From Rhizophlyctis rosea (Eukaryota; Chytridiomycota; Chytridiomycetes; Rhizophlyctidales; Rhizophlyctidaceae), in the NCBI GenBank assembly GCA_027596075.1, contig JADGJC010000144.1, forward strand, positions 35,619 through 99,618: 64,000 nt of DNA, in the 5' to 3' direction. The stretch's first letter is position 1, and every line of letters begins with the position of its first letter. The notes under the pieces were generated by a model, which did no database searches, was not told the DNA's origin, and worked only from the letters and a program-made list of their open reading frames with translations. Positions 24,782 through 44,172 of the stretch are shown here, one piece after another. The translations under genes and the position numbers were made by a program.

Positions 24782-26049
24782 TCAAAACACCTGTCTGACA
24801 TTTACATTGATCCTAGACGTCTGCAAATAGTCAGCAAAGATCTTCCAGTCCGGATCGTCCTCATTCTCCACCTCGGTGAGATAAGCCGGCAACGTTCCTT
24901 CCAACAACCTCGGCACACCATGAAAAGCCCGCCGGGACGGTCCAGACATCACTAGTATGTCTCCACTGTCAAGTCTTAACGATATTGGCGGGTCATCACG
25001 TGAGGTAGTGCCTATCAGGTAGACACAGGAATGACCAATGCTGATAGGAGTGTTGTAAATATATGCTATTTGGCACAATCCGTGTCGAGGTTGAGCTTAC
25101 CTGAAACTGACTAAAGGAGCCTCTGTATTGACCTCACTCCGATCCTGATGAGCGGTCAATGATTTTTTCAATTGATAAAAATTGACAATGCCAGCCTCCG
25201 ACTTCCATTTCTCGATATCGTAATGGGTAATGAGCTGCACGGTTTTGATGATGGCGTTACATAGATCAGCGATTTCAGCGGGAAGTGGAGGGCGACGGTC
25301 GAGGTGGTATTCTGTTTATGAAGAAAATTATCCATGTTCAGCCCGACCATCACAGTACGCACGGCACGAGGAGCAATTGACATGCCTTTTGTTGACCAAT
25401 TGTATTGAAAGCCTAAAGATGCCCACCGCAGCTGATGGACGGCATCCAAGGGTGTTATAGGTTTGAGGAATGGCGTAGGGGATGTTGGTGGGTCTATCTT
25501 AACCTTGCCATTGGGTTCAGAAGATTCTGCCGCTTCATCATACCGTTCATCATCCGACGATGAATTGGCAAGACTGTCCGGGTCACGTCGTGCAAGGAGA
25601 AAGTCATCTGGATTTGAACTTTGTAACGTCTTCTCATGCACCCTCCATACGCCTTCATCTGGTATTACGAAATGCGTGTCGAGGTTTGTGACATTTGGTC
25701 GGGAGGTATATTCTCGTAGGCATTTTTTGGCGAGGAAGCGCTGAGCGGCGGGTGTAAAGGGGTTTGGTATGACTATTAGTCCTGGCACACTGCGGACAAG
25801 ATAGGCGGTGGTTTGAGCTGCTTTTGAGGAAGACAAGCCAAATGTAGACGAGAGGCTGCATATGTCCGTTGGACAGGTAATTGGTGTGAACTCGTCCTGC
25901 GGGTTCAGGATAGGGTGGAGGAGTGAAGCGAATAGTTCGTCGGGTAGGACTTTCCGCTTCCAAGTTCGTTCGACGATGCGGAAGGGCGTTTGGTTTGCCC
26001 ATGCCGGCGAGTCTGGTGGTAGCTGTACGAACTTCTTCTTTTTGCCCAT
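24782..26049 (-). CDS. ALKBH1: ALKBH1, Fe(II)/2-oxoglutarate nucleic acid demethylase
   Basis: Three exons: 26049-25386, 25311-25101, 25040-24782, giving 377 aa. ALKBH1 dioxygenases demethylate tRNA (and perhaps DNA) in nucleus and mitochondria. Seen: VPGLIVIPNPF, LRWASLGFQYNW, iron ligands H276-x-D278 in TAHQDRSE, distal ligand H332 in RRAFHGVP, and the 2-oxoglutarate arginines in RINVNVR (R368, R374) near the end. The 56-residue spacing between the first and last iron histidines and the 6-residue Arg spacing fit the family. The first intron appears to use a GC donor (AG|GCATGT at 25385); an in-frame GT alternative does not restore the NWSTKEYHLD reading. The gene is divergent from eS30 with only 268 bp between starts. 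Confidence 0.93.
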
Positions 26050-26317
26050 CCCTTCTTTGTTGATAAGGTAAGTAAGTAGATGTCTGGAAAGCTGGGACGA
26101 ATTTCACGGAGGAGGAAAGCAGGAAACATGTCCAGCCAAGCCACCGCACTCACCTGGTGGCAAAGTCTCCAAAAAGCGGCATAGTCACGTAATGACTCAC
26201 CATGACTGCCCCACTCCCACCCACTCTGGTCGGCCCATTCCATATTGGCATCCATCCACAGCACATTTGCCTTCCTCCCTCTCACACATCCACTTTCCAG
26301 CCATCCATTAACGAAAG
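26050..26317. promoter_or_regulatory. Shared divergent promoter region, ALKBH1 / eS30
   Basis: The 268 bp between the two start codons must carry both promoters and leaders. It is Pro/CCA-rich near the eS30 side with repeated CATCCA elements. No TATA box is obvious. Confidence 0.5.
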
Positions 26318-26845
26318 ATGGGGTATGTATCTAGCATCGCAATGCATCCATCCATCCATCATCATGCGCGTATATCCAGGGAGGAACTATTGCTAATTTA
26401 AACCATCTTTTTATCGTTATTTTTCGCGATGTTCTTGTTGGTAATGCAGTAAGGTATGTCAAAGGAAGTCTCATGCGGTCACAATGGCGAATGATGGAAT
26501 TAACATGCCTTGACAATTGCCAGGTTCACGGTTCCCTCGCCCGTGCCGGTAAGGTCAAGGGTCAAACCCCCAAGGTCGACAAGCAAGAGAAGAAGAAGAA
26601 GAGGACTGGTATGTCTATTTATTGATGCCCGCTCAACGCATTCGATTTTCTCAAATACTGTATCTTTGCAGGCCGCGCCAAGAAGAGGATCCTCTACAAC
26701 CGCCGCTTCGTCAACGCCGTCGCCTCTTTCGGCAAGCGGAGGGTAAGTTCACACATTTCACAATTGGAATACTGGAATTAGTTTATGGAGCTCACACGAA
26801 TATCATCCGCAGATGAACCCCTCCCCCAACTCTGACTCGAAATAA
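26318..26845 (+). CDS. RPS30: 40S ribosomal protein eS30, with a 4-nt microexon
   Basis: Five coding exons: 26318-26322 (ATGGG), 26450-26453 (TAAG), 26524-26608, 26672-26742, 26813-26845; total 198 nt, 65 aa. Joined, they give [19 protein letters not shown], the conserved eS30 start, then [20 protein letters not shown] and NPSPNSDSK. eS30 is a small basic protein of the 40S subunit; here there is no ubiquitin-like fusion at the N-terminus. The microexon is flanked by a good acceptor (ATGCAG) and donor (GTATGT), and is needed: without T-AAG the Gly2-Lys3 codons and the frame are lost. Introns are 127, 70, 63 and 70 nt. Confidence 0.93.
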
Positions 26846-44099: not shown

Positions 44100-44172
44100 G
44101 GGCACGTGGTAAAGTGGACAATACGTCCGCCTCCGGAGCGGAAGATCGCAGGTTCGATCCCTGCCGTGCTCG
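44100..44172 (+). tRNA. tRNA-Arg (anticodon CCG)
   Basis: A 73-nt cloverleaf can be drawn: acceptor GGGCACG pairs with CGTGCTC (one G-T pair), D arm with GTA/TAC, anticodon stem TCCGC/GCGGA around loop CTCCGGA (anticodon CCG, codon CGG), variable loop AGATC, T stem GCAGG/CCTGC with loop TTCGATC, and discriminator G. No intron. A TTTT run at 44176-44179 follows as a Pol III terminator. Confidence 0.93.

Follow-up and report, generated by a model that had tools for sequence, protein, structure and literature searches.

The eS30 gene in the window (the whole 64,000-nucleotide stretch of Rhizophlyctis rosea DNA that was analysed) raises the question of how the start of its product, MGKVHGSL, is assembled from the genome, and in particular whether an exon of only four nucleotides stands between the start codon and the exon that opens with GTTCACGG. 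The coding sequence is very probably spread over five exons, with exon 2 only four bases in length (Table 1). This is the best reading because it is the sole path found to a product that begins with MGK, the donors of both flanking introns are strong, a single locus was found, and the rival structure is weak and alters the conserved Lys3. A search of the whole assembly (44.1 Mb, 634 contigs) detected a single eS30 locus, and the joined exons give a protein of 65 amino acids that matches Pfam PF04758 (E = 2.2e-29), and likewise solved eS30 chains, over its full length. As the initial annotation had proposed, TAAG completes Gly2 and encodes Lys3, with coordinates that proved exact and a joined frame that yields this protein, and the proper splice sites claimed on either side of it are present, with a CAG acceptor before it and a donor of 10.46 bits after it (AAG/GTATGT, the slash marking the exon boundary). 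With its four nucleotides, TAAG falls in the size class of microexons (up to about 15–30 nt), and it encodes a conserved residue and breaks the frame if skipped.

Table 1. Coding exons of eS30 and the two introns that flank its four-nucleotide exon, in coordinates of the window.
Feature	Coordinates	Strand	Remarks
Coding exon 1	26318..26322	+	ATGGG; codon 1 (Met) and the first two bases of codon 2 (Gly); 5' UTR portion of the exon lies outside these bounds
Intron 1	26323..26449	+	127 nt; GTATGT...TAATGCAG; phase 2; donor GTATGT at 26323; acceptor ...GGTAATGCAG, last base 26449
Exon 2 (microexon)	26450..26453	+	TAAG, 4 nt; final base of Gly2 and Lys3
Intron 2	26454..26523	+	70 nt; GTATGT...TTGCCAG; phase 0; donor GTATGT at 26454; acceptor ...TTGCCAG, last base 26523
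Exon 3	26524..26608	+	opens with GTTCACGG
Exon 4	26672..26742	+	
Exon 5	26813..26845	+	stop TAA at 26843-26845

The four introns of the gene (127, 70, 63 and 70 nt) share a uniform set of splice sites, with three GTATGT donors, one GTAAGT donor and CAG as the acceptor in every case. In intron 1, the CTNAY-type branch-like motif closest to the acceptor, CTAAT, lies at −57, and a T-rich stretch follows it ahead of the acceptor; intron 2 contains the branch-like motifs TTAAC (−24) and TTGAC (−14). The distal position of the motif in intron 1 is no more than suggestive, as nine of the 36 ribosomal protein gene introns kept for comparison (see below) have none of the searched motifs in their last 40 nt; the 66-nt AG-free stretch ahead of the same acceptor was rejected as telling, with an equal or longer stretch in four of the 15 kept introns of at least 100 nt. 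No convincing spliced retrocopy of eS30 was found in the assembly, where five places matched with three mismatches (one of them the gene itself) and the reversed control gave two. None of 10 candidate stretches in viral and prokaryotic contigs held a stray eukaryotic eS30 locus, and 10 archaeal eS30 loci were set aside as short partial matches.

The residues at stake are strongly conserved. Among the best 120 of 2,210 protein matches to eS30, Lys stands directly ahead of [VQA]HGSL in 119 and Gly-Lys occupies this position in 117, the exception for Lys being the protein record of Rhizophlyctis rosea, the nearest named relative, which reads MLVHGSL; the top match (97% identity) is to Rhizophlyctis rosea. 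In the exceptional record (ML/VHGSL), homology picks up exactly at Val4, the first residue of exon 3 in the eS30 locus, and because it restarts where exon 3 begins, the record is quite probably a gene model in which the corresponding microexon was overlooked. Lacking the Gly-Lys of nearly all its relatives, the record illustrates a failure of annotation, and it lends indirect support to the earlier expectation that exons of this size are usually missed. Seven of the 120 relatives have Gln immediately before GKVHGS, as though an acceptor CAG ahead of GGN AAR had been translated, and these, judging by their names, are presumably zoosporic fungi. The pattern suggests an old intron directly after the start codon in those seven lineages. 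Such an intron would agree with the reported excess of start-codon introns in ribosomal protein genes (PMC1626468). The four-nucleotide exon may be the few bases that remained between an old start-codon intron and another intron following codon 3, the first of the two having later shifted by two bases. A metagenome protein reads ...LSQ/KVHGSL, as if an intron ended just ahead of Lys3, and the positions of the 5' introns of eS30 may vary by lineage.

Splice paths with one or two introns that encode exactly M[G/A]K ahead of Val4 were enumerated over the kilobase preceding 26524, any GT...AG intron of 40–1000 nt being admitted, and the microexon path was the only one returned. The statement in the initial annotation that MGKVHGSL can only be built from ATGGG, TAAG and the exon at 26524 thus stands for MGK; it does not extend to an open frame as such, which a donor at 26327 also provides by encoding MGYVHGSL. 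For the chance estimate, the upstream 700 nt were dinucleotide-shuffled, and an M[G/A]K path appeared in 63 of 2,000 shuffles when any GT-AG was accepted and in 0 of 5,000 when GTRNGT donors and YAG acceptors were demanded (M-any-K, 346 of 2,000 and 4 of 5,000, respectively). With exon 1 fixed and the interior shuffled (n = 20,000), AG-NAAR-GT occurred 180 times, YAG-NAAR-GTRNG six times, YAG-NAAR-GTRNGT once and YAG-NAAR-GTATGT not at all. The chance of a microexon path is not negligible under permissive splice sites and is negligible under strict ones.

Splice-site strength was judged against a sample of ribosomal protein genes from the same assembly, for which 18 ribosomal proteins were sought and 17 genes were aligned (uS10 was without a covering match). 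Of the 49 aligned introns, 36 had a score margin of 10 or more at both sites and were kept, the other 13 being dropped; a U12-type-looking intron in uS15 was excluded from the 36, and the donor matrix was constructed from 35 donors, none from an eS30 intron. All 35 matrix donors have G at +5, and their scores range from 4.6 to 10.5 bits. On this species matrix, the donors of introns 1 (G/GTATGT) and 2 (AAG/GTATGT) reach 10.47 and 10.46 bits, and 34 of the 35 left-one-out donor scores fall below both of them, while the donor at 26327 (T/GTATCT) that leads to MGYVHGSL scores −0.55 bits, under all 35. G at +5 is not absolute, with a hand-read uS13 intron carrying C at this position (AAG/GTAACT), though its donor, at 4.87 bits, is still well above the rival. 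Five of the 13 dropped alignments also lacked G at +5, and the gene-start cases in uS12, eS27 and eL36 were read otherwise by hand. The kept introns were short (64–386 nt, 19 of the 36 below 90 nt) and ended in CAG (25), TAG (10) or AAG (1). Introns of this length suit intron definition, and the earlier concern that so small an exon is hard for exon-definition splicing carries less weight here.

The treatment of donors also determined the outcome of spliced alignment. Donor-blind alignment produced the one-intron MGYVHGSL model in 8/8 runs, which it favours because there is one intron fewer to pay for, and donor-aware alignment, using the species matrix and the eS30 proteins of Spizellomyces and Allomyces, produced the microexon in 8/8 runs. 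Donor-blind alignment does not detect tiny exons, as the eS30 case itself shows.

Several features of the other ribosomal protein genes were recorded in the course of this comparison. Re-reading seven gene starts by hand yielded one 24-nt exon, an apparent internal exon of uS13 (SSLQVPDK; 1410-1433 of that locus) between a 318-nt start-codon intron and a 67-nt intron with the GTAACT donor. The start of uS12 reads ATGGGTAAG and then GCAAGT, with the next exon, CCCCGTGGT, preceded by AAG, by eye probably a GC-AG intron. Runs of the tetranucleotides CATC or GGAT were seen by eye at 26341-26363 of the window and in several ribosomal protein genes, uS12 and uS13 among them, within the first intron or the 5' leader. 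Second, partial copies with a decayed appearance exist of uL14 and of eL38, the latter containing an in-frame stop.

The four-nucleotide exon would be expected to be included constitutively, because skipping it shifts the frame (predicted product of 54 amino acids) and keeping either intron leads to an early stop, predicted after 27 amino acids for intron 1 and after 22 for intron 2. Splicing may proceed by intron definition across the two short introns, which would be removed in succession because the acceptor AG (ending at 26449) and the donor GT (starting at 26454) are probably too close to be bound simultaneously. Taking out intron 2 first would carry less risk, because the opposite order gives rise to an additional, frame-breaking donor that otherwise does not form. 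The junction of exon 1 and the microexon rebuilds a donor-like GGGTAAGG (ATGG/GTAAGG), positioned one base before that junction; this donor scores 5.17 bits against 10.46 bits for the true one, and its use is predicted to lose the frame and then to reach a stop codon. The true donor should outcompete the rebuilt one even if intron 1 goes first.

These same elements could instead make the microexon a regulated one, an offset recursive splice site or frame switch, in which use of the CAG acceptor keeps TAAG and gives eS30, whereas splicing to the AAG acceptor at 26453, which leaves an exon of zero length, or from the rebuilt donor loses the frame, the frameshifted RNA tuning eS30 output. The CAG and AAG acceptors are four bases apart, with the second AG abutting GTATGT, and the rebuilt donor lies inside the range of the 35 matrix donors, but CAG precedes AAG and is more frequent as an acceptor in the kept introns, and the true donor scores about twice the rebuilt one, leaving regulation of this kind an improbable role for the exon. 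If it were true, a splice choice within four bases would govern how much of an essential ribosomal protein is made in the Rhizophlyctidales.

It is very unlikely that the gene has no microexon and that one 197-nt intron on the plus strand (26327..26523) joins the start codon to exon 3, giving MGYVHGSL, possibly through the minor (U12) spliceosome. This structure has an open frame, spares one intron and is the choice of donor-blind alignment, but its donor is weaker than all 35 matrix donors and than the weakest hand-read one, it replaces Lys3, a residue shared by 119 of the 120 best-matching relatives, and it reduces the CAG-TAAG-GTATGT element to a coincidence, one that arose, in its GTRNGT version, in a single one of the 20,000 shuffles. 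The consensus sequences of U12-type introns are RTATCCTTT for the donor and TTCCTTRAY for the branch site. Just before 26523 there is a U12-branch-like TGCCTTGAC that agrees with the branch consensus at 8/9 positions, as expected of a U12 branch site, a fit that two of the 36 kept introns also reach. The donor GTATCTAGC, however, agrees with the U12 donor consensus at only 5/9 positions and does not qualify as a U12 donor, compared to 9/9 for the last intron of uS15, which is U12-type-looking with its donor GTATCCTTT and with ATCCTTAAC near the acceptor. Based on this intron and on two U6atac matches above the cut-off in the genome, R. rosea seems to possess a working minor spliceosome, a point in favour of the one-intron rival. 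The U12 snRNA model had no match in the genome, nor in any of 14 control genomes. Minor introns or minor snRNAs are reported for Spizellomyces punctatus (PMC10639083).

That another first exon upstream, bearing a start codon of its own, is joined directly to 26524 is scarcely credible, for although 16 in-frame single-intron starts exist at 25800-26480 when any GT is allowed (the MGYVHGSL start among them), none of the 16 places Lys before Val4, the best donors, at 4.1 bits, are below all 35 of the matrix, and the remoter starts fall within an AlkB-like reading frame of the opposite strand. This frame, a 2OG-Fe(II) oxygenase at 25171-26049 on the minus strand, points away from eS30, its start codon 268 nt from that of eS30, and the two genes may share a promoter. 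The best matches to the AlkB-like frame were a metagenome protein (68% identity) and then, with names, proteins of Borealophlyctis nickersoniae (54%) and Rhizophlyctis rosea (61%). Both species belong to the Rhizophlyctidales, and together with the top match of eS30 they place the genome within this order of chytrids or close to it. Elsewhere in the window, a tRNA gene at 44100-44172 is the only Rfam match at the gathering threshold.

If the five-exon structure with its four-nucleotide exon is true, an essential ribosomal gene for which the assembly shows one locus depends on an exon of four nucleotides, and the short-intron splicing of a chytrid copes with an exon that, from general knowledge, is smaller than the sequence contacted by the machinery at either end. 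The 5' region of eS30 would also offer a compact natural substrate, of about 0.2 kb, for the order in which two crowded introns are removed.

Tiny exons are already known as a kind, and eS30 is a new case in a gene and a phylum unnamed in the literature search, in which the titles and abstract openings of the best-ranked open-licence matches named no microexon of eS30 or of a chytrid. Among fungi, small exons are reported in the P450 genes of Phanerochaete, the shortest given there being 6 bp (PMC1184071), and these resemble eS30 in that the fungus combines microexons with introns of small size, while differing in that they belong to a dispensable, expanded family. The Fusarium P450 gene CYP621A is described with a 1-nt exon, backed by 20 orthologues and read support (PMC12940212); like the eS30 exon it is an ultra-small fungal exon that was inferred from the frame and a conserved motif and overlooked by annotation, whereas the eS30 exon has 4 nt and is known from one genome, in an essential ribosomal gene. 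In plants, the 1-nt microexons of APC11 and VPS55 are reported as conserved in many species, with proof by RNA-seq and RT-PCR (PMC8831610), and their absence from annotations led to wrong or shortened N-termini, a likeness to eS30, from which they differ as plant genes with multi-species conservation and RNA proof.

Two further comparisons concern the introns rather than the exon. Intron 1 of eS30 resembles the start-codon introns described for ribosomal protein genes (PMC1626468) in standing at the beginning of a ribosomal protein gene whose product is short and rich in lysine, though it interrupts codon 2 after the second base and so, being in phase 2, does not count as a start-codon (phase 0) intron, its site lying two bases beyond the usual one after ATG. 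As in the recursively spliced exons that have been described (PMC6224609), a donor-like sequence forms when exon 1 and the microexon are joined, and another donor follows within a few bases. In eS30, however, the rebuilt donor sits one base before the junction, is outscored by the true donor and would destroy the frame if used.

The closest parallel in size is the 4-bp coding exon of human and mouse MPC1, reported as constitutive and with RT-PCR proof (PMC9929638). Both exons have four bases and break the frame if lost, and the eS30 exon is predicted likewise to be constitutive. The MPC1 exon is flanked by introns of more than 12 kb and more than 3 kb and has been argued to rely on exon definition (PMC9929638), whereas those of eS30 measure 127 and 70 nt and belong to a fungal ribosomal protein gene. 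A distal pyrimidine-rich region has been proposed to ease crowding in MPC1 (PMC9929638), and the distal CTAAT of eS30 intron 1, followed by its T-rich stretch, is a suggestive counterpart.
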